64,000 nucleotides of DNA from Alphaproteobacteria bacterium (lineage in GTDB: Bacteria; Pseudomonadota; Alphaproteobacteria; Acetobacterales; Acetobacteraceae), in the NCBI GenBank assembly GCA_026400815.1, contig JAPLOI010000009.1, forward strand, positions 41,391 to 105,390, given 5' to 3'. This document shows, piece after piece, positions 116-49,169 of this stretch. Numbering within the stretch: position 1 is the first letter of the stretch; each line of letters opens with the position of its first letter. Below the pieces are notes generated by a model. That model ran no database searches. It was given only the letters and a program-made list of their open reading frames with translations, and was not told the DNA's origin. The translations under genes and the position numbers were made by a program.

Positions 116-248
116 GAAGCATGTTCTTTTTTGAAAAAAAGAACCAAAAAACTTTTCCGACTGGCACGCGTGCCGGTCGTCCAGCACGCGTGCCAGCAAA
201 TGAAGTCTTTTTTGCTTCTTTTTTCTTCAGAAAAAAGAAGACTCTTCC
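116..248. repeat. Convergent-gap repeat, copy A
   Basis: This copy fills the gap between two convergent genes. A first AT-rich hairpin (arms GTTCTTTTTT and AAAAAAGAAC) lies at about 123-144. A GC-rich inverted repeat forms the core at 161-196 (CTGGCACGCGTGCCGG against CCAGCACGCGTGCCAG). A second AT-rich hairpin lies at 215-240 (CTTCTTTTTTCT against AGAAAAAAGAAG). The segments flanking the core (CAAAAAACTT and AAGTCTTTTTTG) can also pair with one bulge, so the whole unit could fold as a multi-branched structure. It probably acts as a bidirectional transcription terminator. Related copies are at 15348, 37246 and 48297. Confidence 0.85.
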
Positions 249-8800: not shown

Positions 8801-9022
8801 GTCGTGGCGCCCGCGCCGGAGCCGGTTGTCGCTGCCCCCGTGGCCGTGGAACCGCCTCCTGCCGCCGTCGTGCCCCCGCCGGCCGCACCCGAGCCTGCGC
8901 CGGAGCCCGCCGCGGCGCCCGACTCGGCCGCACCCGCGGTTGGCCCGGCGATCAAGCCGATCGTCCTCGGTGCCGATCCCGTGCCCGTGGCGGCCCCCAA
9001 GCGCGGCTGGTGGAAGCGCTGA
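5813..9022 (+). CDS. rne: Ribonuclease E
   Basis: The endonuclease that initiates mRNA decay and matures rRNA and tRNA, about 1069 residues. MTKRMLIDATHAEETRVVVL is the usual alphaproteobacterial start, although the frame stays open upstream to 5657. The S1 domain is split by about 180 acidic and low-complexity residues (about 93-270) that include four RDGG repeats and an RGRRRRRGG stretch. Catalytic aspartates lie in AIDVNSGRST and VIDFIDMESRKH, and the zinc-link CPHCAG is near residue 595. A long Pro/Ala/Glu-rich tail holds two Arg-rich RNA-binding stretches. It ends GWWKR, matching the GWW motif that binds PNPase in Caulobacter. A strong terminator follows. Confidence 0.96.
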   Translation: MTKRMLIDATHAEETRVVVLDGNRLEDFDVEASTKKQLKGNIYLAKVVRVEPSLQAAFVEYGGGRHGFLAFGEIHPDYYQIPIADRQRLLKLQEEDARAAEAEEDAEDEARASRAAPAEAAPQPQVPSGRDGGRDGGRDGGRDGGRDQARGRRRRRGGPREAALEAPASATAYGEIDFGEVTHGAFIVGQDAPEIDGVAEPEAEPQSQALEAPAYAETESFDAADSQSDTGGDSDLDEVESDEAPPEALGGSDDVFEGNGADEASERRMARFLRNYRIQEVIRRRQIMLIQVVKEERGTKGAALTTYISLAGRFCVLMPNSPRGGGISRKITSAADRRRLKEITAELEIPSGMGLIVRTAGANRPKPEIKRDCEYLMRLWDDIRELTMRSMAPALIYEEASLIKRAIRDGYSRDIDEVVVDGEAGWRAARDFMRMLMPSHARKVQLWRPEGVGQPLFAKHGVEDQLDSMLVPNVQLKSGGYLIINQAEALVAIDVNSGRSTRERGIEETALRTNLEAADEVARQLRLRDLAGLIVIDFIDMESRKHNAMVERRLKDALKHDRARIQIGNISHFGLLEMSRQRLRPSLTETSFVTCPHCAGLGLVRTTESAAIHVLREIEEEGGKARAGHIMVHAASSVAMYLLNNKRDRLAEIEVRYGMRVHFSADESLMPPAIRIDRLRPPLSEAERIALLPPASVVPVPPPAFEADEDDDMAEDAPDVAEAVAPPPKPVAAPVVTAPVVAAPVVAAPVVVVAADDSDSEDEREEGEPGQEAATSAEDAERRRRRRRRRRGGRREDGEESPAAAAEAEAPLDPDAEQPIPALPPVLAEVEPAVAEAVVDPAEQEQPALDPEELDENGLPKARRRGRRGGRRRRRDDGTADESAEAAPPAEPAPVAAAPVPAPVPAPAPAPRPAPAPAYSGPTPADPFGGLPSDIFDILERAEMAEQAPPPRRAPAPAPEELKIPPVPADATPPADIIPEPAPEPVPEPVPEPVAVVVAPAPEPVVAAPVAVEPPPAAVVPPPAAPEPAPEPAAAPDSAAPAVGPAIKPIVLGADPVPVAAPKRGWWKR
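6203..6250 (+). repeat. RDGG-coding tandem repeat in rne
   Basis: Four tandem 12-base units encode RDGG within the insertion that splits the RNase E S1 domain. The units differ at wobble positions (GGT, GGA and GGC glycine codons), so the repeat is old or kept at protein level. An Arg-rich run follows immediately, suggesting a flexible RNA-binding loop. Confidence 0.75.
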
Positions 9023-9055
9023 TCCCGCGCTGACGCCACCGTCCAACGCCGACCC

Positions 9056-9100
9056 ATCGGCGGCCATGGCGAAAAAATCGCCATGGCCGCCGATTTTTCT
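9056..9100 (+). terminator. rne terminator
   Basis: A perfect 17-bp stem (ATCGGCGGCCATGGCGA against its complement at 9078-9094) with a short A-rich loop is followed by TTTTTCTT. It lies about 30 bases after the rne stop and is a textbook intrinsic terminator. Confidence 0.93.
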
Positions 9101-9150
9101 TGTGCGGCGCAGCAGCGAAGGGGCACGCTGCCCTTGGTCTTCAACAACTG

Positions 9151-9164
9151 AAAGGAGGTGATCC
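9151..9164 (+). promoter_or_regulatory. Shine-Dalgarno fully complementary to the 16S 3' tail
   Basis: AAAGGAGGTGATCC is the exact reverse complement of the usual bacterial 16S rRNA 3' end (GGATCACCTCCTTT). The GGAGG core is seven bases before a GTG start at 9166. Fourteen continuous complementary bases is far more than an ordinary ribosome binding site offers. Confidence 0.8.
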
Positions 9165-9165
9165 A

Positions 9166-9237
9166 GTGTCTCATTGCTCTTGGTGCCGTATGACTGGCGC
9201 GACCTGGGTCTCTGTCTCCCTCACGGTGGCAGGGTAA
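9166..9237 (+). CDS. 23-residue Cys/Trp-containing small protein
   Basis: GTG 9166 to TAA 9235 encodes MSHCSWCRMTGATWVSVSLT plus VAG. It has a CxxC pair, two Trp and a C-terminal hydrophobic stretch. The Shine-Dalgarno is the strongest possible, and an intrinsic terminator follows 36 bases after the stop, so this looks like a short, self-contained, translated transcript. It is not an obvious leader peptide, because no plus-strand gene follows before 12339. TGGCAG (9227-9232) can pair with CTGCCA (9259-9264) across the stop codon. I do not recognise the family. The RNA, rather than the peptide, could be the functional product. Confidence 0.55.
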   Translation: MSHCSWCRMTGATWVSVSLTVAG

Positions 9238-9272
9238 TCTCCGTCCGACAGCTTACGGCTGCCAGACAATGG

Positions 9273-9307
9273 AAGGCCTCGGGGGCAACCCCGGGGCCTT
9301 CGCTTTT
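9273..9307 (+). terminator. Terminator after the small ORF
   Basis: Arms AAGGCCTCGGGG (9273-9284) and CCCCGGGGCCTT (9289-9300), with one mismatch and a GCAA tetraloop, are followed by CGCTTTT. The structure fits an intrinsic terminator for the short transcript carrying the 23-codon ORF. Confidence 0.85.
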
Positions 9308-9440
9308 GGTGGGCTGTGGATGCGGCACGGCTCGCTTCTCGTCTCGCTTCCACCCCGGCCGGTAGGGGGCGTCATGCCCGAAGCACCAGCGTCCCGCACC
9401 GCCGTTCCACCAGGCCTGTGCCCCATGCCGGCGCGCAAAC

Positions 9441-9473
9441 ACGAAAAAGGGCGGCCCCTGCGGGCCGCCCTTT
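9441..9473 (-). terminator. Terminator of the F0 ATP synthase operon
   Basis: Read on the minus strand, AAAGGGCGGCCC pairs with GGGCCGCCCTTT around a four-base loop, and TTTTTCGT follows. It lies 25 bases beyond the atpF stop. The segment 9308-9440 between the two terminators shows no gene. Confidence 0.9.
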
Positions 9474-9497
9474 CGTCGTTCGATCAGTCGTGGTGGG

Positions 9498-10013
9498 TTA
9501 GGCCGCGCGCTTCGGCGCCAGGGCCGTCGGCAGGCTCGCAATCGCCCGATCCACCAGCGCGCCGCCGGCTTCCGGGGTCAGGCTCGCGCGAATCACGTTC
9601 TCGGCGGCAACGGCAGCCACTTCGGCAGCGATGCTGCGAACATCGTCCACAGCCGCCTTCTCCGCGGTCGTGATCCGGTCCACGGCCATCTTCTCGCGCC
9701 GCGCTGCAGAGGCTTCCGCCTCGGCCGCCGCACTTGCCGCGAGCTGCTGCGCCTGCGCCCGGGCACCGTCCAGCAGCGCCTTGGCATCGGCCATCGCCTG
9801 CTCGCGGCGCTTCTTCGCATCCGCCAGCAACGCCTCAGCCTCGCTGCGCAGCTTCTGCGCCTCGGCCAGTTCGGTGCGGACCTGATCGGCGCGCTTGTCC
9901 AGGATCGCGGTCAGCGCCGCCCAGATCTTCGAGCCGAACAGGATGAAGAAGATGAAGAACGCCGCGGCGACCCACGTCTTCGGATCGTCCCAGAACCCGT
10001 ATTGGTGATCCAT
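9498..10013 (-). CDS. atpF: ATP synthase F0 subunit b
   Basis: Peripheral stalk subunit b of 171 residues, holding the F1 head against rotation. One N-terminal membrane helix (WVAAAFFIFFILFGSKIWAAL) is followed by a long charged, Ala-rich coiled coil. The start MDHQYGFWDDPKTWV is chosen because GAGGAGG lies just upstream at the right spacing. An upstream extension in the same frame overlaps the b' gene and has no family resemblance. It is the last gene of the operon atpI-atpB-atpE-b'-b, and the intrinsic terminator at 9441-9473 follows. Confidence 0.95.
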   Translation of the reverse strand: MDHQYGFWDDPKTWVAAAFFIFFILFGSKIWAALTAILDKRADQVRTELAEAQKLRSEAEALLADAKKRREQAMADAKALLDGARAQAQQLAASAAAEAEASAARREKMAVDRITTAEKAAVDDVRSIAAEVAAVAAENVIRASLTPEAGGALVDRAIASLPTALAPKRAA

Positions 10014-13766: not shown

Positions 13767-15347
13767 ATGAAGCGGCGCACATTCCTTGGTGCCGGTGCGG
13801 CCGGCGTGGCCACCACGGCCTTGCCGCGCGTGGCCGTCACCCAGCCCGCCAGCGCGCGGGTGCTGAAATTCGTTCCGCAGGCCAATCTCACCCTGCTGGA
13901 CCCGATCATCACCACCGCCGCCGTCACCTACAACCACGCCTACATGGTGTGGGACCTGCTGTACGGCGTGAACAGCAAGCTGGAAGCCAAGCCGCAGATG
14001 GCCGAGGGCCACACGGTCTCGGCCGACGGGCTCACCTGGCTTATCCGCCTGCGCGAGGGCCTGAAGTTCCACGATGGCGAGCCGGTGCGCGCCCAGGATT
14101 GCGCCGCCAGCCTGGAACGCTGGTCGATTCGCGATCCCTTCGGCCAGACGCTGCGCAAGGTTCTGGACAGCTTCGGCCACCAGGACGACCGCACGATCCG
14201 GGTGAAGCTCAAGAAGCCCTTCCCGCTGCTGATCGACGCGATCGCGCTGCAGGGCAGCTACATCATGCCGGAGCGCATGGCCAAGACCGACCCGTTCAGG
14301 CCGATCACCGAATTCGTCGGCTCCGGCCCGTTCCGGTTCATGGACAAGGAATTCGTCGCCGGCAGCAGCGCCGCCTGGCAGAAATTCGACGGCTACGTGC
14401 CCCGCCAGGAACAGCCGGATTGGTTCACCGGCGCCAAGATCGCCCATTTCGACCGGATCGAATGGAAGATCATCCCGGATGCCGCCACCGCCGCCGCCGC
14501 CCTGCAATCGGGCGAGGTGGATTGGTACGAGCAGGTGCAGGCCGACCTGGCCCCTATGCTCCGCCGCAACAACGCCATCCAGTTCGGGCCCTCGAACCCT
14601 ATGGGCTATATCGGCGGCATGCGCTTCAACCACCTGAACGCGCCGTTCAACGATGCGCGCATCCGCCGTGCCGTGCAGGTTGCCGTGAACCAGGAAGACT
14701 ACATGCAGGCGATCAACGGGGCAGACCGTTCGTCCTGGCAGGTCTGCCGGTCCCAGTTCCCGTGCGGCACCACCTACGGTAACCAGGTCAACCTCCCCAA
14801 CGTCCAGTCCGGGAACATCGAGCTGGCCAGGCGGATGATCCAGGAAGCCGGCTACAAGGGCGAGAAGGCGGTCATCATCAACCCGACCGACTTCCACACC
14901 ATCGGGCCGCTGGGCGACATCACCTTCGACATGCTGAAGAAGATCGGCATCAACGTGGAACTGGCCGCGACCGATTGGGGCACCGTGGTGCAGCGCCGCA
15001 GCAGCAAGGAAACGCCGGACAAGGGTGGCTGGAGCATCTTCCACACCTGGTTCACCGGCGCCTTCATCCTGAACCCGATCATCACGCCGCCCTATCGTGG
15101 GCTCGGCGCGGCCGGCTGGTTCGGCTGGTACGACAACCCCAAGGTGGAGGAACTCACCCAGGCCTGGCTCGACGCACCAGACGAGACCGGGCGCCTGCGC
15201 ATCGCCAATGAGATCCAGGTGGAGAACTACACCCAGGTGCCCACGGTCACGCTGGGCCAGTTCCAGATCCCAACGGCGTGGCGCAAGAGCCTCACCGGCA
15301 AGCTGGAAGCCACCGGGCCGTTGTTCTGGAATGTGAAGCGAGCCTAA
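13767..15347 (+). CDS. ABC transporter substrate-binding protein (peptide/opine type)
   Basis: A 526-residue periplasmic solute-binding protein of the SBP_bac_5 (DppA/OppA) family. The twin-arginine-like signal MKRRTFLGAGAAGVATTA suggests Tat export. Family landmarks include LREGLKFHDGEPVRAQDCAA and NPMGYIGGMRFNHLNAPFND. No permease or ATPase genes are next to it, so it either uses components encoded elsewhere or is an orphan. A possible RBS-masking hairpin precedes it. It converges on aspS, with repeat copy B in the gap. Confidence 0.92.
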   Translation: MKRRTFLGAGAAGVATTALPRVAVTQPASARVLKFVPQANLTLLDPIITTAAVTYNHAYMVWDLLYGVNSKLEAKPQMAEGHTVSADGLTWLIRLREGLKFHDGEPVRAQDCAASLERWSIRDPFGQTLRKVLDSFGHQDDRTIRVKLKKPFPLLIDAIALQGSYIMPERMAKTDPFRPITEFVGSGPFRFMDKEFVAGSSAAWQKFDGYVPRQEQPDWFTGAKIAHFDRIEWKIIPDAATAAAALQSGEVDWYEQVQADLAPMLRRNNAIQFGPSNPMGYIGGMRFNHLNAPFNDARIRRAVQVAVNQEDYMQAINGADRSSWQVCRSQFPCGTTYGNQVNLPNVQSGNIELARRMIQEAGYKGEKAVIINPTDFHTIGPLGDITFDMLKKIGINVELAATDWGTVVQRRSSKETPDKGGWSIFHTWFTGAFILNPIITPPYRGLGAAGWFGWYDNPKVEELTQAWLDAPDETGRLRIANEIQVENYTQVPTVTLGQFQIPTAWRKSLTGKLEATGPLFWNVKRA

Positions 15348-15477
15348 GGAAGAGCCTTCTTTTTTCTGAAGAAAAAAGAAGCAAAAAAGACTTCATTCGC
15401 TTGTGCCCGTGCCGGGTAACTGGCGCGGGCACAAGCGAATAAAAGTTTTTTGGTTCTTTTTTTCAAAAAAGAACCGC
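15348..15477. repeat. Convergent-gap repeat, copy B (inverted)
   Basis: This copy has the opposite orientation to copies A, C and D. The CTTC/GAAG hairpin comes first (about 15356-15381), then the core, then the GGTTC/GAACC hairpin (about 15452-15475). The core at 15395-15440 has a perfect 15-bp stem (ATTCGCTTGTGCCCG against CGGGCACAAGCGAAT), extendable by about four more pairs. Its sequence is unrelated to the cores of the other copies. It fills the whole space between two convergent stop codons. Confidence 0.88.
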
Positions 15478-17265
15478 TTAGTCTTTCTTGACCTTCGGCG
15501 GCAACGCCAGCGCCAAAGAAAGCTCCTTCAACCGCGCCGGCGGCACCTCGGCGGGCGCCCCCATCATCAGGTCTTCGCCCTGCTGGTTCAGCGGGAACAG
15601 GATCACCTCGCGGATATTCGGCTCATCGGCCAGCAGCATCACGATGCGGTCGATGCCCGGTGCCGAACCGCCATGGGGCGGCGCCCCATACCGAAATGCG
15701 TTCAGCATGCCGCCGAAGCGGGATTCCACGTCGGCCTGGGTGTAGCCGGCAATTTCGAACGCCTTCACCATGATGTCGGGCCGGTGGTTGCGGATGGCGC
15801 CGGACGAAAGCTCGATGCCGTTGCAGACGATGTCGTACTGGTAGGCCTTGATGGTCAGCGGGTCCTGCGTCAGCAGCGCCTCCATCTCGCCCTGCGGCAT
15901 GCTGAACGGGTTGTGGCTGAAGTCGATCTGCTTGGTTTCCTCGTTCAGCTCGTACATCGGGAAATCCGTGATCCAGCAGAAGCGGAACTCGCCCTGGGAG
16001 ATCAGGCCCAGCTCGTTGCCCAGCTTGGTGCGCACCAGGCCGGAGAACTTCGGCGCCTCGTCCTTTTTGCCGGCCACGAAGAAGATGCTGTCGCCGGGCT
16101 TGGCACCGGCGGCCACGCGGATGGCCTCCGCACGGTCGGCTTCCAGGTTGCGGGCGATCGGGCCCTTGGGGCCGTCGGCCTCGTACTGGATGTAGCCCAG
16201 GCCGCCCTGGCCCTCGCTGCGCGCCCATTCGTTCAGCTTGTCGAAGAAGCTGCGCGGGTTGCTGGCGGTGCCGGGGGCGGGCACGGCGCGGATGATGCCG
16301 CCGCTGGCCGCGATCTTGGCGAACAGCCCGAAGCCGGAGCCGGCGAAATGCTCCGTCACGTCGGTGATCTCGATCGGGTTGCGCAGGTCCGGCTTGTCGG
16401 AGCCGTATTTCAGCATCGAGGTGTCGTACGGGATGCGCACGAAGGGCGGCTTGGTCACGGCGCGGCCGTTCGCGAATTCCTCGAACACCCCGGCGATCAC
16501 GGGCTCGATCGTGTTGAACACGTCTTCCTGCGTCACGTAGCTCATCTCGAAATCGAGCTGGTAGAACTCGCCGGGCGAGCGGTCGGCCCGGCTGGCCTCG
16601 TCGCGGAAGCAGGGGGCGATCTGGAAGTAGCGGTCGAAGCCGGCCACCATGGCCAGCTGCTTGAACTGCTGCGGCGCCTGCGGCAGGGCGTAGAACTTGC
16701 CGGGGTGGTTGCGGGCCGGCACCAGGAAGTCGCGCGCGCCCTCGGGGCTGCTGGCGGTCAGGATCGGCGTCTGGAACTCGGTGAAGCCCGATTCGATCAT
16801 ACGGCGGCGGATGCTGGCGATCACGCCCGCCCGCAGCATGATGTTGCGGTGCATCTTCTCGCGCCGCAGGTCGATGAAGCGGTATTTCAGGCGCAGCTCG
16901 TCGGGGTATTTCTCCTCCCCGGCCACCTGCAGCGGCAGCACCTCGGCGGCGGATTGCACCGCCAGCGTCGCGGCGCGCAGCTCGATCTCGCCGGTGGGCA
17001 GGCGGGGGTTCACCGTGCCGTCCTGGCGCACCACCACGCTGCCGGTCACGGTGATCACGCTTTCCGGCCGCAGCTTGTCGATGGTCTCGAACGGCGCGGA
17101 GCCGGCGGCGAACACGATCTGGGTGATCCCGTAGTGGTCGCGCAGATCGACGAACAGCAGCCCGCCATGGTCGCGCTTGCTGTGCACCCAGCCCGAAAGG
17201 CGCGCGGTGCTGCCGGCATCGGTGGCGCGGAGCGCGCCGCAGGTATGTGTGCGGTAGGCGTGCAT
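15478..17265 (-). CDS. aspS: Aspartyl-tRNA synthetase
   Basis: Class II synthetase of 595 residues charging tRNA-Asp, and possibly tRNA-Asn if non-discriminating. An N-terminal OB-fold anticodon domain precedes class II motif 2 ([19 protein letters not shown]), the bacterial GAD insertion, and motif 3 near the C-terminus ([20 protein letters not shown]). [13 protein letters not shown] is the usual family start. The frame is open 20 codons further upstream, but those residues do not fit. Its product discrimination cannot be decided by eye. Confidence 0.96.
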
Positions 17266-25932: not shown

Positions 25933-27044
25933 GGGTCCTGGTATGGCAATGGGGCCGCCGAGGCGCCGGGCCGCGCTACGCGGTGGAACTGGCCGCCGGC
26001 CTGCGCGGCGTGCCCGGCGTGGAAGCGCTGCTCTCCCTGTCCCGGCAGGCAGAAATCCTCGCCGGGGCAGATGCGCCGGCCTGCGACCTGCCGATCGAGA
26101 CCTATTCCGGCCTGCGCGACCTGGTGCTGCGCCTGCCCCGGCTGCCCTTCGAGGTCGGCGGCCTGGCAAAGCGCATCGCGGCGCTGCGGCCCGATGTGGC
26201 GATCTGCGCCATGCCGGCGCCGCTGGATGTGCTGATGGCCGCCGCATTGCGGCGGGCCAAGGTGCCCCATGCCGTGGTGATCCACGATGCCGATCTGCAC
26301 CCCGGCGACATCCACTCGCTCCAGATGGTCCTGCAACGCCGCCTGGCCCGGCGCGCCGATGCCGTGGTCGCCCTCAGCCGCCACGTCGGCGACCGCCTGC
26401 TGGAACAGGGCGTGGCCCGGCCCGGCCGCCTGGTGCTGACGGAACTGCCCCCGCTCTCCTACGGCGCCCCCCCACCCCCGCCACGCACCCATGGCGGCAA
26501 GCTCCGGCTGCTCTGCTTCGGCCGGCTGCTGCCCTACAAGGGCCTGGACCTGCTGGCCGAAGCCATGGCCGGGCTCGGCCCGCGCGACGACCTGGAATTG
26601 CGCGTGGTCGGCAACGGCCCGGAATCACCGGTGCTCAACCAGCTGCGCGCCCTGCCCGGCGTCACCGTGGAAAACCGCTGGGTGCCCGAAGAAGAAGTGG
26701 CCTCCATCCTGGCCTGGGCCGACGCCCTCGTGCTGCCCTACCGCGAAGCAAGCCAAAGCGGCGTGGCCGCCGCCGCCATCGCAGCCCGGCGCTTTGTGGT
26801 GGCCACACAGGTCGGCGGAATCACCGAACAGCTGGAAGGCTCCGCCATGGCCCGTCTGGTGCCGCCGGACGCCAAGGCCCTCGGCGCCGCACTGGTCGCC
26901 CTGGCAGCGGAACAAGCGCCCTTCGTCGCGCCAACGGAAGATCGCTGGCCCGGCGTGATGGCAGCGCTGGTGCGCGACCTTTCGGCGGTCATTCAAGGAA
27001 GAAAAGAAGGCCAGGGCTCTGCCCTGGACCCGCTGGGGCCTTAG
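25929..27044 (+). CDS. Glycosyltransferase family 4 (second)
   Basis: A 371-residue GT-B enzyme. KLRLLCFGRLLPYKGLDLL is the start of the donor domain, LRVVGNGPES follows, and VLPYREASQSGVAAAAIAAR is the donor-binding region. The start overlaps the previous stop (ATGA). The last 13 residues (GQGSALDPLGP region) are encoded by repeat element R1, and the TAG stop lies inside one of its palindromes. The original C-terminus was probably shorter or different. Confidence 0.88.
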   Translation: MRVLVWQWGRRGAGPRYAVELAAGLRGVPGVEALLSLSRQAEILAGADAPACDLPIETYSGLRDLVLRLPRLPFEVGGLAKRIAALRPDVAICAMPAPLDVLMAAALRRAKVPHAVVIHDADLHPGDIHSLQMVLQRRLARRADAVVALSRHVGDRLLEQGVARPGRLVLTELPPLSYGAPPPPPRTHGGKLRLLCFGRLLPYKGLDLLAEAMAGLGPRDDLELRVVGNGPESPVLNQLRALPGVTVENRWVPEEEVASILAWADALVLPYREASQSGVAAAAIAARRFVVATQVGGITEQLEGSAMARLVPPDAKALGAALVALAAEQAPFVAPTEDRWPGVMAALVRDLSAVIQGRKEGQGSALDPLGP

Positions 27045-27058
27045 GCCCCAGACCCCTT
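27006..27058 (+). repeat. Palindromic 3'-end repeat R1
   Basis: Two hairpins in series: CCAGGGC-TCT-GCCCTGG, then CTGGGGCC-TTA-GGCCCCAG, framed by GAAGG at one end and ACCCCTT at the other. R2 at 27620-27694 is the same element in inverted orientation. Each lies at the 3' end of a gene with the GAAGGCCAGG end nearer that gene. The element overlaps the glycosyltransferase coding end. There is no U-tract, so it may act as a terminator, an mRNA-end stabiliser or a REP-like unit. Confidence 0.8.
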
Positions 27059-27147
27059 GACCTGAAGTTATCACCAATCGCAAATCTGAGTACGTACGGG
27101 ATAAAAAACCTTTCCCACCGGTGTTGCGTTTGGCACAATCACCGGTG

Positions 27148-27615: not shown

Positions 27616-27619
27616 AGTG

Positions 27620-27694
27620 AAGGGGTCTGGGGCCTAAGGCCCCAGCGGGTCCCCGCGGCGCCACTTGCGCCGCGCAGGCAGAGCCCTGGCCTTC
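27620..27694 (-). repeat. Palindromic 3'-end repeat R2
   Basis: This is an inverted copy of R1. Read on the minus strand it has GAAGGCCAGGGCTCTGCC, then GGACCCGCTGGGGCC and AGACCCCTT as in R1. Where R1 has only CT, R2 carries about 24 extra bases that form their own hairpin (CGCGGCGC-AAGTG-GCGCCGCG). It begins just after the stop of the hpnL-like gene. The conserved frame with a different inner palindrome parallels the behaviour of the AT-rich repeat family. Confidence 0.8.
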
Positions 27695-34660: not shown

Positions 34661-35863
34661 ATGAAGCGTCGTACTGTTCTGGCCGGCATCGGTGCCGGCC
34701 TTGCCATGCCGCATATCCGCCCGGCCGAGGCGGCCACCGTGGTGGGCGTGACCAAGACCGAGATCAAGATCGGCCACACCATTCCGTATAGCGGCAACGC
34801 CTCCTCCTATGGCGTGATCGGCAAGAGCCACTCCGCCTACTTCAAGATGATCAACGACCAGGGCGGCATCAACGGCCGCAAGATCAACTTCATCTCGCTG
34901 GACGACGCCTACAACCCCGCCAAGACGGTGGAGCAGGTGCGCCGACTGGTGGAGCAGGACAAGGTGGCGCTGCTGTTCAACGTGCTGGGCACGCCGACCA
35001 ACTCGGCGATCCATCGCTACGTGAACCAGCGCAAGGTGCCGCATCTGTTCCTGTCCACCGGCGCGGACAAGTGGGCCAACCCGAAGGACTTCCCGTGGAC
35101 GATCGGCTGGCAGCCCAGCTACCACACGGAAGGCCAGATCTATGCCCGCTACATCCAGCAGGCGAAGCCCGGCGCGAAGGCCGCGCTGATCTACCAGAAC
35201 GACGATTTCGGCAAGGACTACCTGAACGGCCTGAAGGACGCGCTGAAGGGCGATTTCGACAAGGTGTTCATCAAGGTCCTCACCTACGAAGCGACCGATG
35301 CGACGATCGATAGCCAGGTGGTGAGCCTGAAGGAGAGCGGGGCCGACACGCTGGTGAGCGCGTGCATCCCGAAATTCTCGGCGCAGCTGATCCGCAAGGC
35401 CTATGACATCGGCTGGAAGCCCTTGCACTGCATGTCCAACGTGTCTGCCTCCGTGGGCGCCACGATCAACCCGGCGGGGCCGGAGAAGGCGGTGGGGGTG
35501 ATTTCCTCCCAGTACCTGAAGGACCACAGCGACCCCGACTGGAAGAACGATGCCGGCATGAACGAATGGCGCGCGTTCATGGCGAAGTACATCCCGGAGG
35601 GCGACATCAACGACGCCGGCTACGTGTTCGCCTATGGCGCTGTGCAGTCGATGGTGCAGACCCTGAAGCAGTGCGGCGACGACCTGTCGCGCGAGAACAT
35701 CATGAAGCAGGCGGCCAACCTGAAGCATGACGTGGGCGTGTTGCTGCCGGGCATTTCCGTGAGCACCGGGCCGAACGACTTCCATCCGATCAAGCAGATG
35801 CAGCTGACCCGCTGGACCGGCACCACCTGGGAGCGGTTCGGCGGCGTGCTCGCCTCCTCCTGA
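34661..35863 (+). CDS. livK: Branched-chain amino acid binding protein, copy 1
   Basis: A 400-residue periplasmic binding protein of the LivK/Leu-Ile-Val type I fold. The signal MKRRTVLAGIGAGLAMPHIR is Tat-like. The mature part opens with TEIKIGHTIPYSGNASSYG, the ligand-lobe signature. ATG 34661 is taken because it begins the signal peptide and GGAG is upstream. An in-frame start 10 codons earlier is possible. It is the last gene of livGFHMK and is followed by an intrinsic terminator. Its specificity may extend beyond branched-chain amino acids. Confidence 0.93.
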   Translation: MKRRTVLAGIGAGLAMPHIRPAEAATVVGVTKTEIKIGHTIPYSGNASSYGVIGKSHSAYFKMINDQGGINGRKINFISLDDAYNPAKTVEQVRRLVEQDKVALLFNVLGTPTNSAIHRYVNQRKVPHLFLSTGADKWANPKDFPWTIGWQPSYHTEGQIYARYIQQAKPGAKAALIYQNDDFGKDYLNGLKDALKGDFDKVFIKVLTYEATDATIDSQVVSLKESGADTLVSACIPKFSAQLIRKAYDIGWKPLHCMSNVSASVGATINPAGPEKAVGVISSQYLKDHSDPDWKNDAGMNEWRAFMAKYIPEGDINDAGYVFAYGAVQSMVQTLKQCGDDLSRENIMKQAANLKHDVGVLLPGISVSTGPNDFHPIKQMQLTRWTGTTWERFGGVLASS

Positions 35864-35883
35864 GCCGACTCGGCTGAAACAGA

Positions 35884-35924
35884 ACGGCCCGGCACCGGGG
35901 ACGGTGCCGGGCCGTTTCGTTTTT
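35884..35924 (+). terminator. Terminator of the liv operon
   Basis: A 13-bp perfect stem (ACGGCCCGGCACC, 35884-35896, against 35903-35915) with a six-base loop is followed by TTCGTTTTT. It separates the first livK from the second. Confidence 0.93.
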
Positions 35925-36027
35925 CGGCCGGGATGACGAAAGTTGCGGACTTTGACGCCGGCCCCTGGCTAGACTTCCTCCAGCCCCCGCAACGACGGGA
36001 GCCAATAAACAGCGAGGAAGAAGCGTT

Positions 36028-37245
36028 ATGAAACGTCGTACTGTGCTTGCTGGACTGGGACTTGCCGGCGTGGGTGGCCTTGCGGCGCCCGCGATCATCC
36101 GCCCCGCCATGGGTGCCACTGTGGTGGGCGTGACCAAGACCGAGATCAAGATCGGGCATATCGTGCCCTATAGCGGCAATGCCTCCTCCTACGGGGTGGG
36201 CGGGCGCTCTCACTCGGCGTTCTTCAAGCGAGTGAACGACATGGGCGGCGTGGCCGGGCGGAAGATCAACTTCATCTCGCTCGACGACGGCTACAACCCG
36301 GCCAAGACGGTGGAGCAGGCGCGGCGATTGGTGGAGCAGGAGCAGGTGGCCTTCCTGTTCAACCCGCTGGGCACGCCGACCAACACGGCGATCCACCGCT
36401 ACATGAACCAGCGCAAGGTGCCGCATCTGTTCCTGGCGACCAGCGCGGACAAATGGGGCGACTACAAGGCCTTCCCCTGGACGATCGGCTACGCGCCCAG
36501 CTACCGCACCGAGGCGCAGATCTACGGCAAGTACATCAAGCAGCAGCGGCCGAACGCCAAGGCGGCGCTGATCTACCAGAACGACGACTTCGGCAAGGAC
36601 TACCTGCACGGGTTGCAGGACGTGTACGGCAAGGACTTCGACAAGACCTTCATCAAGGTCGTGACCTACGAGGCCTCCGACGCCACGGTGGACAGCCAGG
36701 TGGTGACGATGAAGGACAGCGGTGCCGAGGTGCTGGTGACGGGCGCGATCCCGAAATTCTCCGCCCAGGTGATCCGCAAGGCCTTCGATATCGGCTGGAA
36801 GCCGCTGCACATCATGTCCAACGTCTCGGCCTCCATCGCCTCCACCATCACGCCGGCGGGGCCGGAGAAGGCGGAAGGGGTGATTACCTCCCAGTACCTG
36901 AAAGACCCCACCGACCCGGACTTCAAGGACGCGCCGGACATGAAGGAGTGGCGCGAATTCATGGCGAAATACCTGCCGGACGGCGACACCACCGACGCCA
37001 ACTACGTCTATGCCTACAGCGTGGCGACGCTGATGCACATTGTGCTGAAGCAGTGCGGGGAGGATTTCTCGCGCGAGAACATCATGAAGCAGGCGTCGAA
37101 TGTGAAGAAGGTGGCCCTGCCGCTGCTGCTGCCGAACATGACTGCGGCGACCACGCCGACGGATTTCCGGCCGCTGAAGCAGCTTCAGCTGGCGCGCTGG
37201 AAGAAGGATACCTGGGAGCGCTTCGGGGACATCATCGGAGCGTGA
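36028..37245 (+). CDS. livK: Branched-chain amino acid binding protein, copy 2
   Basis: A 405-residue close paralog of the preceding gene, roughly two thirds identical by eye along the whole length, including the signal (MKRRTVLAGLGLAGVGGLAA) and the start of the mature protein. Shared blocks include IYQNDDFGKDYL, IPKFSAQ and SRENIMKQA. It has its own ribosome binding site (GAGGAAGAAGCGTT before ATG) and lies beyond the operon terminator, so it is probably transcribed separately. The two proteins would feed one LivGFHM complex with different ligands or conditions. This reads as a tandem duplication. Confidence 0.93.
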   Translation: MKRRTVLAGLGLAGVGGLAAPAIIRPAMGATVVGVTKTEIKIGHIVPYSGNASSYGVGGRSHSAFFKRVNDMGGVAGRKINFISLDDGYNPAKTVEQARRLVEQEQVAFLFNPLGTPTNTAIHRYMNQRKVPHLFLATSADKWGDYKAFPWTIGYAPSYRTEAQIYGKYIKQQRPNAKAALIYQNDDFGKDYLHGLQDVYGKDFDKTFIKVVTYEASDATVDSQVVTMKDSGAEVLVTGAIPKFSAQVIRKAFDIGWKPLHIMSNVSASIASTITPAGPEKAEGVITSQYLKDPTDPDFKDAPDMKEWREFMAKYLPDGDTTDANYVYAYSVATLMHIVLKQCGEDFSRENIMKQASNVKKVALPLLLPNMTAATTPTDFRPLKQLQLARWKKDTWERFGDIIGA

Positions 37246-37381
37246 GGAAGGAAGCGGTTCTTTTTTGAAAAAAAGAACCAAAACACTTTTTCCTGTTTGG
37301 TGCGGAGAATGCATATTCTCCGCACCAAATTTGGGAAGTCTTTTTTGCTTCTTTTTTCTTCAGAAAAAAGAAGAGTCTTGT
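37246..37381. repeat. Convergent-gap repeat, copy C
   Basis: First hairpin GGTTCTTTTTT/AAAAAAGAACC at about 37257-37279. The core at 37296-37329 is a perfect 15-bp palindrome (TTTGGTGCGGAGAAT, loop GCAT, ATTCTCCGCACCAAA). The second hairpin CTTCTTTTTTCT/AGAAAAAAGAAG follows at about 37348-37373. Orientation matches copies A and D. It lies between convergent livK and the SDR gene. The core is unrelated in sequence to the other copies while the outer hairpins are nearly identical. Confidence 0.88.
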
Positions 37382-37416
37382 TTGATCGCGTGATTCACGT
37401 CTTCGACGATCACGCT

Positions 37417-47007: not shown

Positions 47008-47043
47008 GGAAGCCTTCTTTTTCTTCGGAAAGAGAAGGCTTCC
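47008..47043. terminator. Bidirectional terminator, single-hairpin relative of the AT-rich repeats
   Basis: A 16-bp stem (GGAAGCCTTCTTTTTC against GAAAGAGAAGGCTTCC, one G-T pair) is capped by TTCG. It resembles the CTTC/GAAG hairpin of the convergent-gap repeats but lacks the core and the other hairpin. It fills a 51-base gap between convergent stop codons and can fold from either strand. Confidence 0.82.
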
Positions 47044-47606: not shown

Positions 47607-48296
47607 TTGGGCGAGGTGAGCGGCGAGGACCTGGAGCGGCTGGCCAACCGGATGGCGCTGCTGGTCTCCGATGATGGCGAGGCCGACAATGCCGGCCGTG
47701 CGGTGGGCCAGCTGGCGCGGCGGCTGGGGCTTTCCGGCGGCGACCTGAAGGCGCTGGTGCTGGCGAGCGCGGGCAGCGGGTTCCGGCCCGGCAGTTCACC
47801 GGCGACGCTGCGGTTGGAGCAGGAAATCGACGCGCTGCGCCAGGAATTGCGCGAGGCGCGCGAGGGCGAGCGCGCCGCGCGTGAGGATCGGGATGCGCTG
47901 GTGGCCGAGAACGGCGCGATGCGCGTGGCGATGTACCGCCGGCGTGCCGGGGCCAAGATGCGCAACTTGCTGCTGGGCTTGGGGGCGATCGGGGTGGTGG
48001 CGGTGGCGGCCGGGGTGGTGCTGCTGACGCCTGATCCGACGCCGGTGCCGATGGGCGTGCCCATGGGGGGCCGCGGCGATGGCATGGCGCCGGCGGCGCG
48101 GGTGGCCATGGTGCGTGGGGCCGGGGCGGTGCTGTATCGTGGGCCCGACCGGTCCTCGGAGGTTATCGGGCGGCTGGGGGCCGGCTCGCGGCTGCTGGTG
48201 CAGCGCACGGAATGGCGCAGCATGATGCAGTGGGTGCAGGTGGAAGTGGAGGGGCGCGTGGGATACGTGGCCACCACTGAGGTCGAGATCTTCTAA
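47607..48296 (+). CDS. Membrane-anchored SH3b-domain protein
   Basis: A 229-residue protein. An N-terminal helical region is followed by a charged coiled coil (EQEIDALRQELREAREGERA, about residues 70-105). One membrane helix follows (NLLLGLGAIGVVAVAAGVVL), then a periplasmic bacterial SH3 domain (AVLYRGPDRSSEVIGRLGAG and WVQVEVEGRVGYVATTEVE). SH3b domains commonly bind cell-wall peptides or proteins. TTG 47607 is chosen for its spacing from AGGGGG. GTG 47616 is an alternative. The cellular role is unknown. Confidence 0.75.
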   Translation: MGEVSGEDLERLANRMALLVSDDGEADNAGRAVGQLARRLGLSGGDLKALVLASAGSGFRPGSSPATLRLEQEIDALRQELREAREGERAAREDRDALVAENGAMRVAMYRRRAGAKMRNLLLGLGAIGVVAVAAGVVLLTPDPTPVPMGVPMGGRGDGMAPAARVAMVRGAGAVLYRGPDRSSEVIGRLGAGSRLLVQRTEWRSMMQWVQVEVEGRVGYVATTEVEIF

Positions 48297-48431
48297 GGGA
48301 AGCAAGCGGTTCTTTTTTGAAAAAAAAGAACCAAAAAACTTTACTGACTAGAGGCGGATGGACTGGATCTTCCCGCCTTAATAAATGAAGTTTTTTTGCT
48401 TCTTTTTGTTCACAAAAAGAAGACTCTTGCT
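48297..48431. repeat. Convergent-gap repeat, copy D
   Basis: First hairpin GGTTCTTTTTT/AAAAAAGAACC at about 48308-48332. The second hairpin at about 48399-48422 reads CTTCTTTTTGT/ACAAAAAGAAG, where a changed base pair (G-C) replaces the T-A of other copies. The core is weak: only AGGCGG (48352-48357) and CCGCCT (48373-48378) pair. Outer ends GAAGCAAG and CTTGCTTC are perfect inverted repeats, closing the unit. It lies between the convergent SH3b gene and eutC. Confidence 0.85.
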
Positions 48432-49169
48432 TCAGGCTTCACTGATCCGCGCCGCGGGCGTCGGTTGTTCGTCCTTCAGCGCCACGCCGGTAAGGCCGAG
48501 GCGGCGCATGGCGGCGATCAGCCAGAGCAGCTTCGCCGCGGCCTCGGGGATGGGCAGGCCTTCCGGGCGGATGTTGGAGATGCAGTTGCGTTCCGCGTCG
48601 GTGCGGCCGGGGCGGGGCTGCCAGGTGAGGTAGATTCCGAGGCTGTCGGGCGTGGACAGGCCCGGGCGCTCGCCGATCAGCACGGCAACAGCGTCCGCAC
48701 CCAGGGCTGCGCCGATCTCGTCGCCGAGAGCGACACGGCCCTGGCGGGCGATGATGACGGGGCCGGATTGGCCGAGGGCGGGCATCACCTGGGCCAGGAG
48801 CGGGGCGGCATGGCGCTGCACGGCGGTGGCGGAGAGGCCGTCTGCCACCACGAAGGCGATGCCCGGGGTGCGGGGAAGGCGGGCGGCTTCGCCCGGGGCG
48901 AGGCGGCGGCCGAGATCGGGGCGCAGGAGATAGGTGCGGCGATCCGGACAGGCACTGTGGATCGTGGTGCTGGACAGGCCGGCGGCGGCGAGGTCGGCGG
49001 TGAGTTGTTCCACGTTGAGTTCGGCGTGGACGGCATCGCGCGCGGCGGCGTGGGCGGCCTGGAATTCGAGATGCGCGGCGGTGGGCAGGCCGTTGCCGAC
49101 GCGCCCGAGGGCGACGCGGGCGGGGGTGAAGCGGCGCAGGTCTCGCCAGAGGGTGGGCGGCGTGCTCAT
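48432..49169 (-). CDS. eutC: Ethanolamine ammonia-lyase small subunit
   Basis: A 245-residue light chain of the adenosylcobalamin-dependent enzyme that converts ethanolamine to acetaldehyde and ammonia. Family landmarks are TPARVALGRVGNGLPT near the start, FVVADGLSATAVQRHA, and IGERPGLSTPDSLGIYLTWQ. The ATG overlaps the eutB stop as ATGA, indicating coupling. No carboxysome-type eut genes, reactivase or acetaldehyde dehydrogenase are nearby, so this is the short, cytosolic form of the pathway. Confidence 0.95.
   Translation of the reverse strand: MSTPPTLWRDLRRFTPARVALGRVGNGLPTAAHLEFQAAHAAARDAVHAELNVEQLTADLAAAGLSSTTIHSACPDRRTYLLRPDLGRRLAPGEAARLPRTPGIAFVVADGLSATAVQRHAAPLLAQVMPALGQSGPVIIARQGRVALGDEIGAALGADAVAVLIGERPGLSTPDSLGIYLTWQPRPGRTDAERNCISNIRPEGLPIPEAAAKLLWLIAAMRRLGLTGVALKDEQPTPAARISEA

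Follow-up and report, generated by a model that had tools for sequence, protein, structure and literature searches.

The DNA stretch analysed here (the window, 64,000 nt of an Acetobacteraceae genome) contains four full copies of a repeat unit of ~130 bp, each located between two convergent genes: copies 1, 3 and 4 on the plus strand at 115–248, 37245–37382 and 48296–48432, and copy 2 in reverse orientation on the minus strand at 15347–15478. Sequence, alignment, folding and gene calls verified these sites and the layout that a first-pass annotation of the same DNA had given for them. Aligned in one orientation, the window copies begin with arm L, a GTTC-T6-loop-A6-GAAC hairpin, followed on its 3′ side by an A-tract linker (like CAAAAAACTTTT), a core palindrome, a second linker (AAGTC-T5/6-GC or AAG-T7-GC) and arm R, a CTTC-T5/6-loop-A5/6-GAAG hairpin. 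In copy 1, arm L (GTTC T6 G A7 GAAC) occupies 123–144 and the A-tract linker, which on the minus strand reads as a U-tract after the core, 145–156; the variable core follows at 157–202, the plus-strand U-tract linker at 203–214 and arm R (CTTC T6 CTTCAG A6 GAAG) at 215–240. On the minus strand, copy 2 has arm R at 15356–15381, a core palindrome that is diverged or replaced in relatives at 15395–15440 and arm L at 15453–15474. The L and R arms lie at 37257–37278 and 37348–37373 in copy 3, and at 48309–48331 and 48399–48422 in copy 4, where arm R is a GTTCAC version. The two arm patterns occur three and four times in the window, compared with a mean of 0.00 in dinucleotide shuffles, and each copy folds more stably than its shuffles on both strands (z −5.4 to −9.7).

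The convergent gaps that hold the four copies measure 133, 130, 171 and 135 nt. The first-pass annotation had described them as filled almost exactly; by our own gene call, 44 nt of the 171 nt gap remain unfilled. Its description of the convergent pairs lacking a full copy was accurate for all six in the window: three overlap or stand 4 nt apart (18218/18215, 21890/21895 and 42042/42039), one has a short hairpin in the gap (47000/47052), and two have longer gaps with other palindromes (9022/9498 and 27044/27699). The hairpin in the 51 nt gap 47000/47052 is a simple one (47008–47043, GGAAGCC...GGCTTCC) and is possibly a reduced arm of the same repeat family. At the 27044/27699 gap, 27026–27061 and 27617–27652 are inverted arms of 36 nt that are 97% complementary and separated by 555 nt, possibly a small mobile element or its remnant. 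The 475 nt gap 9022–9498 carries the 16-mer AAAGGAGGTGATCCAG at 9151–9166, which we take to resemble the reverse complement of the 16S rRNA 3′ end; an Rfam scan found no rRNA in the window. Elsewhere, at 34661–37245, two neighbouring genes share stretches of 63–300 nt that are 80–86% alike at a spacing of 1382 nt, a tandem duplication.

The arm pattern used for counting, TTCTTTTT-(0-10)-AAAAAGAA, matched 554 times in the whole genome (5.11 Mb, 89 contigs), while the reversed control pattern matched 0 times. A covariance-model search of the genome and its relatives, as the first-pass annotation had proposed, revealed a large family. With a model of 28 own-genome copies, a cut-off of E ≤ 1e-5 and at most 150 candidates scored per genome, 150 of 150 candidates matched in the own genome (G000), which therefore contains at least 150 copies. 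There were likewise 150 matches each in G244, G153 and G306, 84 in G062 and 35 in G301; in three copy-poor members of the family, none of the 150 candidates scored per genome matched. Gene context was examined in a sample of 864 kb, or 16.9% of the 5.11 Mb genome, made up of the 64 kb window and 40 whole 20 kb stretches; these were taken from contigs with element matches and the window's own contig rather than at random. Genes were called with an in-house codon-usage script, not a published tool (737 genes, 89.6% coding in the 864 kb), and a copy was counted as full if two arm hairpins were found by exact pattern no more than 160 nt apart. The sample held 108 arm hairpins in 67 clusters, of which 41 were full copies and 26 single-arm by exact pattern, the second arm being decayed rather than absent in many of the latter. 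Scaled by the sample ratio, the whole genome would have roughly 340 clusters and 210 full copies. One convergent gap of 969 nt contains two single-arm clusters ~0.8 kb apart, C31:118798 and C31:119631, the exact pattern giving an L arm in one and an R arm in the other; C31:118798 has its own decayed R arm.

Confinement to convergent gene ends, as first proposed, proved to be a property of the window only and was rejected for the genome: of the 41 full copies in the sample, 21 lay between convergent genes, 19 between co-directional and 1 between divergent ones, and of the 26 single-arm clusters 9 were convergent and 16 co-directional, with 1 in a gene or at an edge. The copies were not spread equally over gene orientations either, the outcome that the annotation had named as speaking against it. 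Full copies occupied 21 of the 48 convergent gaps of at least 100 nt, compared with 19 of the 141 co-directional and 1 of the 81 divergent gaps of that size (Fisher's exact test, convergent versus divergent p = 5e-10, convergent versus co-directional p = 2.8e-5). All 19 co-directional full copies started 5–16 nt after the upstream stop codon; random placement in the same gaps put a mean of 8.6 and a maximum of 15 copies within 16 nt of a stop in 2000 runs. Correspondingly, 18 of the 21 convergent full copies were within 20 nt of both stops. Co-directional single-arm clusters were placed more loosely than full copies, with only 6 of 16 within 20 nt of the stop. Arm L came first behind the stop in 14 of the 19 co-directional full copies, a bias that is suggestive only. 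The full unit is thus a marker of gene 3′ ends, tied to stop codons rather than to convergent pairs, and convergent gaps are plausibly favoured because two gene 3′ ends meet there.

Similar placement was found in other genomes. In 400 kb of G062, from a second genus, 23 clusters were divided into 9 convergent, 13 co-directional and 1 divergent, and 11 of the 13 co-directional ones lay within 30 nt of the upstream stop. Anchoring was looser in G153, from a third genus: 400 kb held 22 clusters (4 convergent, 17 co-directional, 1 divergent), and 11 of the 17 co-directional ones lay no more than 30 nt from the upstream stop; a further 100 kb contained 9 clusters (1 convergent, 7 co-directional, 1 divergent), with 2 of the 7 co-directional ones that close. 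The public annotation of two Pseudoroseomonas cervicalis plasmids agrees with this placement: it shows one copy filling the space between convergent genes and another whose end is 5 nt from a stop.

The link to stop codons extends to their sequence. TAA was the stop of 46 of the 70 genes with a copy within 25 nt, compared with 74 of 665 other genes (Fisher's exact test, p = 3e-23), and TAA was followed by G in 45 of these 46 element-flanked genes versus 28 of 74 elsewhere. Counted from the first base of the stop, the frequency of AAG peaked at −3 (0.17), +1 (0.64), +5 (0.44) and +9 (0.16), with 0.17 also at +6; these peaks have a period of four locked to the stop codon, and other genes did not exceed 0.04 at any offset. 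The (NAAG)n ladder at the end of the element therefore often includes the gene's own stop codon, with N being T. The TAA enrichment was weaker in G062 (8 of 20 versus 37 of 309, p = 0.002) and in G153 (5 of 15 versus 31 of 271, p = 0.03). At the site of copy 2, the relatives that lack a full element have their stop, TAG, TAA or TGA, at the same position, so at that site the copy left the gene end unmoved.

We compared relatives from the same genus at seven full sites, that of copy 2 and six others, and scored 18 of 22 site-by-genome pairs. The four unscored pairs comprised a half-lost copy (G244), two with no full element (G274 and G299, each returned twice) and a mutated arm missed by the pattern (G171); a single-arm site with two relatives was kept outside the 18. 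Over these 18 pairs, mean identity was 93.7% in the flanks, 98.4% in arm L with its linker, 97.8% in arm R with its linker, and 75.9% in the core, and element orientation was identical throughout. At the copy 2 site, no two of the four genomes with a full copy have the same core, and in a fifth, G244, the R half has been lost. G274 lacks arms at this site and has other palindromes instead, and G299 has only an R arm, within a gap of ~0.9 kb. In G033 the two genes end on different contigs, neither of which shows an arm over the 200 nt next to the gene end. Other sites vary in their own ways: the core at C10:77891 is 72% identical in G297 between flanks of 96–99%, the R module at C10:71833 (linker and hairpin together) is another version in G119, and some cores are unchanged, such as that at C10:74504, which is 100% identical in G297. 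Paralogous cores are on average 55% identical. The palindromes that stand in place of a missing arm, of the GATTGCTTCGCTTCGCTCGCAATGACG and GGCGGAACCGCTTCGCGTTCCGCC types, suggest mosaic exchange between repeat families; they were seen at L001 and L004 and at sampled single-arm copies, e.g. C18:102862, C18:165942 and C31:70744.

Despite these differences in sequence, the cores mostly keep their ability to pair. Core length in the genome sample is usually 36–47 nt, and in 37 cores the two halves of the same core bind each other at −23.7 kcal/mol, compared with −14.2 kcal/mol for swapped halves (0 of 2000 permutations), with the own half being the best partner in only 12 of the 37. Unguided RNAalifold on 28 own-genome copies recovered both arm hairpins, a 9-pair core stem and a 6-pair linker stem, bearing out the suggestion of the first-pass annotation that the linkers can pair. 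Two-sided, pair-keeping changes occurred in 8 of the 9 pairs of the core stem in these 28 copies. As single hairpins, the cores have a mean MFE of −21.1, and folding is beyond z −2 in only 25 of 37. A test of fixed-register pairing in the outer nine core bases was weak (0.438 versus 0.411, reached by 144 of 2000 permutations), partly because the core ends as we had set them were out of register; the half-duplex test and RNAalifold were run afterwards. Of 108 arm hairpins, 50 are closed by a G-C pair and 53 by C-G, a difference that mostly splits L from R arms and was therefore not used as covariation. Two copies are nearly coreless, with 6 nt at C20:35571 and 17 nt at C15:20522, and lack a stable hairpin; the former is kept in three relatives. 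Taken together, the core drifts or is exchanged while mostly keeping its self-complementarity, which fits selection for a hairpin and not for its letters. Either gene conversion among the copies or purifying selection could have kept the arms constant.

From either side, the order of parts is a (NAAG)n ladder, an arm hairpin, an A-tract, a GC-rich core hairpin and a U-tract. Among full L-R copies, a left A-run of at least 5 was present in 37 of 39 and a right T-run of at least 5 in all 39, so that a U-tract follows the hairpin on both strands. A stable GC-rich hairpin is present apart from the two near-coreless copies, and the location behind gene 3′ ends was seen in the own genome, in G062 and on the two annotated plasmids, and more loosely in G153. 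Since an arm hairpin, A-tract, core hairpin and U-tract are found on both strands, we read this dispersed repeat of ~130 bp directly behind stop codons as, quite probably, a bidirectional intrinsic transcription terminator, a prediction from DNA sequence. The first-pass annotation had listed such a function among its options, and placement and architecture support it well; its overall interpretation stands in part, since the unit does not depend on a convergent arrangement. Whichever gene RNA polymerase comes from, it would transcribe in turn the stop codon, an arm hairpin, the A-tract, the core hairpin and the U-tract. Core hairpin and following U-tract are the components of an intrinsic terminator and would together release the polymerase. 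The two linkers pair in the consensus structure and may in this way lengthen the core stem, as happens in known bidirectional terminators, for which the available part of PMC1852404 describes complementary tails flanking the hairpin. More speculatively, the leading T5-6 run of the distal arm might act as a back-up U-tract, and the proximal arm might keep a terminating ribosome off the core hairpin; protection of RNA ends or a handle for recombination are other speculative arm roles. Against a terminator, the U-tract is interrupted (GAAGTC before T5-6) and starts a few bases past the GC-rich part of the stem. Termination alone also leaves unexplained why the arms are conserved beyond what a terminator needs.

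The position at gene 3′ ends, the excess in convergent gaps, the stable folds on both strands and the strongly AT-rich arm palindromes would also suit a REP/BIME-like stabiliser of mRNA 3′ ends or a site where supercoils are relieved between converging genes; either would work as an RNA hairpin or a DNA cruciform that lets transcription continue. We consider this improbable, as it does not predict the A-tract/U-tract that lies past the core in both reading directions, nor ends locked to stop codons, and co-directional 3′ ends are used too. REP/BIME units are intergenic and palindromic, occur in hundreds of copies, are mosaic and lie at gene 3′ ends, all of which they and REPINs share with the present family; it differs in its A/T-rich arms with U-tracts, its ~130 bp unit with an exchangeable core, and a copy number unmatched by RAYT genes. 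A scan for the single family PF01797 in 24 copy-rich and 24 copy-poor genomes found RAYT (Y1_Tnp) in 3 of the former and 4 of the latter, and RAYT mobilisation as a current driver was rejected.

Hundreds of near-invariant words at gene ends, arranged as inverted pairs, also recall the DNA-uptake signals of Neisseria and Haemophilus, short recognition words co-opted into terminators (PMC1852404, as far as its available parts describe them). We think it very improbable that the present family is of this kind: the words here are hairpins of ~22–26 nt rather than 9–11 nt, and all but one of the 67 sampled clusters lie between genes. Uptake words are also found inside genes. The available parts of PMC1852404 and PMC5217627 describe uptake-signal terminators of Neisseria and Pasteurellaceae as repeated sequences that form many gene-end hairpins and are enriched between tail-to-tail genes, as here. 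In those systems the repeated word is itself the terminator stem; in the present family the repeated words are the outer arms, and the stem is the variable core.

Of the 299 genomes searched in the family, 111 contain one or more arm hairpins; counts range from 0 to 1213 and differ strongly within genera: three g49 genomes have 14, 476 and 1213 hairpins, and three g96 genomes have 241, 254 and 349 compared with 2, 2 and 6 in three others. A stricter arm pattern was found in none of 187 genomes of the class from other families (190 searched, three of which belonged to the own family). The exact 33-mer of arm L recurs across genera, in at least 115 stretches; among the 80 matches listed, most are labelled Acetobacteraceae, Rhodospirillales or named genera of the family, and others come from MAGs labelled Oscillospiraceae (3 stretches) and Acidobacteria (5). 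The arm is also present in 37 stretches of viral contigs. The element is also present in a MAG labelled Asaia bogorensis (L120, 70% GC at the locus), which matches the genus member G033 in its hairpin count of 896 and in size; its label may be wrong. Outside Proteobacteria, the L-type arm with its A-tract stands alone in an Oscillospiraceae-labelled MAG (L273–L292, G301), on a Parabacteroides plasmid, where it lies between convergent genes, and in the genome record of a member of the Microviridae (L341, L342). None of 23 sampled clusters of the Oscillospiraceae-labelled MAG had a second arm within 160 nt, and in several of 12 contexts inspected the arm immediately precedes a start codon, which means that an arm by itself does not mark a gene end everywhere. 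Its occurrence across phyla may be due to descent, transfer or convergence.

The patchy counts within g49 and g96 and the exact 33-mer shared across genera would be expected of a small MITE- or cruciform-like element that is mobile but not autonomous and is recognised by its arms, with the siting at stop codons due to target preference or to selection against other sites and any termination a side effect. The first-pass annotation had raised a small mobile cruciform among its options, and as an origin of the family this idea is still possible. In the same direction, one G153 copy is 81–88% alike, over its whole length including the core, to dozens of places in the g96 genomes G096 and G288, which points to copying of whole elements; both arms are alike in several G153 copies, and the ends are inverted (NAAG)n/(NCTT)n. 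Arms and NAAG/NCTT ends are inverted and near-alike, the limits of the element being approximate. Among own-genus relatives read at the seven full sites, we found no target duplication and no clean insertion or empty site; these sites were inherited, half-lost or otherwise rebuilt, and the copies were mostly inherited in place with the same orientation. The RAYT counts likewise give this explanation no help, and the copy-poor g96 genomes, at 78% identity, are too distant for an empty-site comparison. Judged on these sequence comparisons, the element is likely mobile, and its expansion would likely have involved copying of whole elements by a mobilising enzyme; that it is in essence a mobile element, with termination incidental, we regard as possible but short of probable, and we retain the bidirectional terminator as the preferred reading. 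A scenario that joins the two, which we hold to be rather doubtful in its full form, is a mobile-derived gene-ending cassette: each copy would supply or replace the stop codon through its NAAG ladder and add a two-way terminator, arms would be homogenised by gene conversion and cores swapped or left to drift, and hundreds of gene ends would have been re-equipped in some lineages and none in their relatives.

The statement in the first-pass annotation that no named family has this layout agrees with our searches: Rfam 15 gave no match in the window at the gathering cut-off, lax filters gave 73 matches for copy 3, none at its own cut-off, and no description was found in the literature searched, a coverage that leaves most subscription journals outside. 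Gene-end hairpins with adenines on one side and thymines on the other are described in the available part of PMC1852404. Bidirectional intrinsic terminators (Ju 2019 and Wang 2023, as cited in the part of PMC13082048 available) share with the present unit a GC-rich hairpin between an A-tract and a U-tract, a location between or behind genes and, in principle, activity on both strands. As described in these parts, they are not a repeat family and have neither two added near-invariant arms nor a stop-containing end. MITEs and stem-loop families (ERIC, NEMIS and those of PMC2267715) are similar in being ~100–150 bp long, inverted-repeat and intergenic; the present family differs in the lack of target duplication at the sites read and of a parent transposase in the PF01797 scan, its hypervariable core and its stop-codon-locked ends. 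The parts seen of the stem-loop family table in PMC2267715 include no Acetobacteraceae. The family thus appears to be undescribed: its parts would be those of a bidirectional intrinsic terminator, but they come as a dispersed repeat in which the arms are near-invariant, the core is free and the end is locked to the stop codon.

The usual view is that each gene acquires its intrinsic terminator separately. A repeat family whose members are copied entire, sit no more than ~16 nt from stop codons and evolve with constant ends around a freely changing core would mean that a dispersed repeat can standardise gene ends. With many natural core replacements in one frame, the dependence of terminator function on structure alone becomes testable, and with so patchy a distribution inside genera, termination could be compared between genomes that have the system and genomes that lack it.
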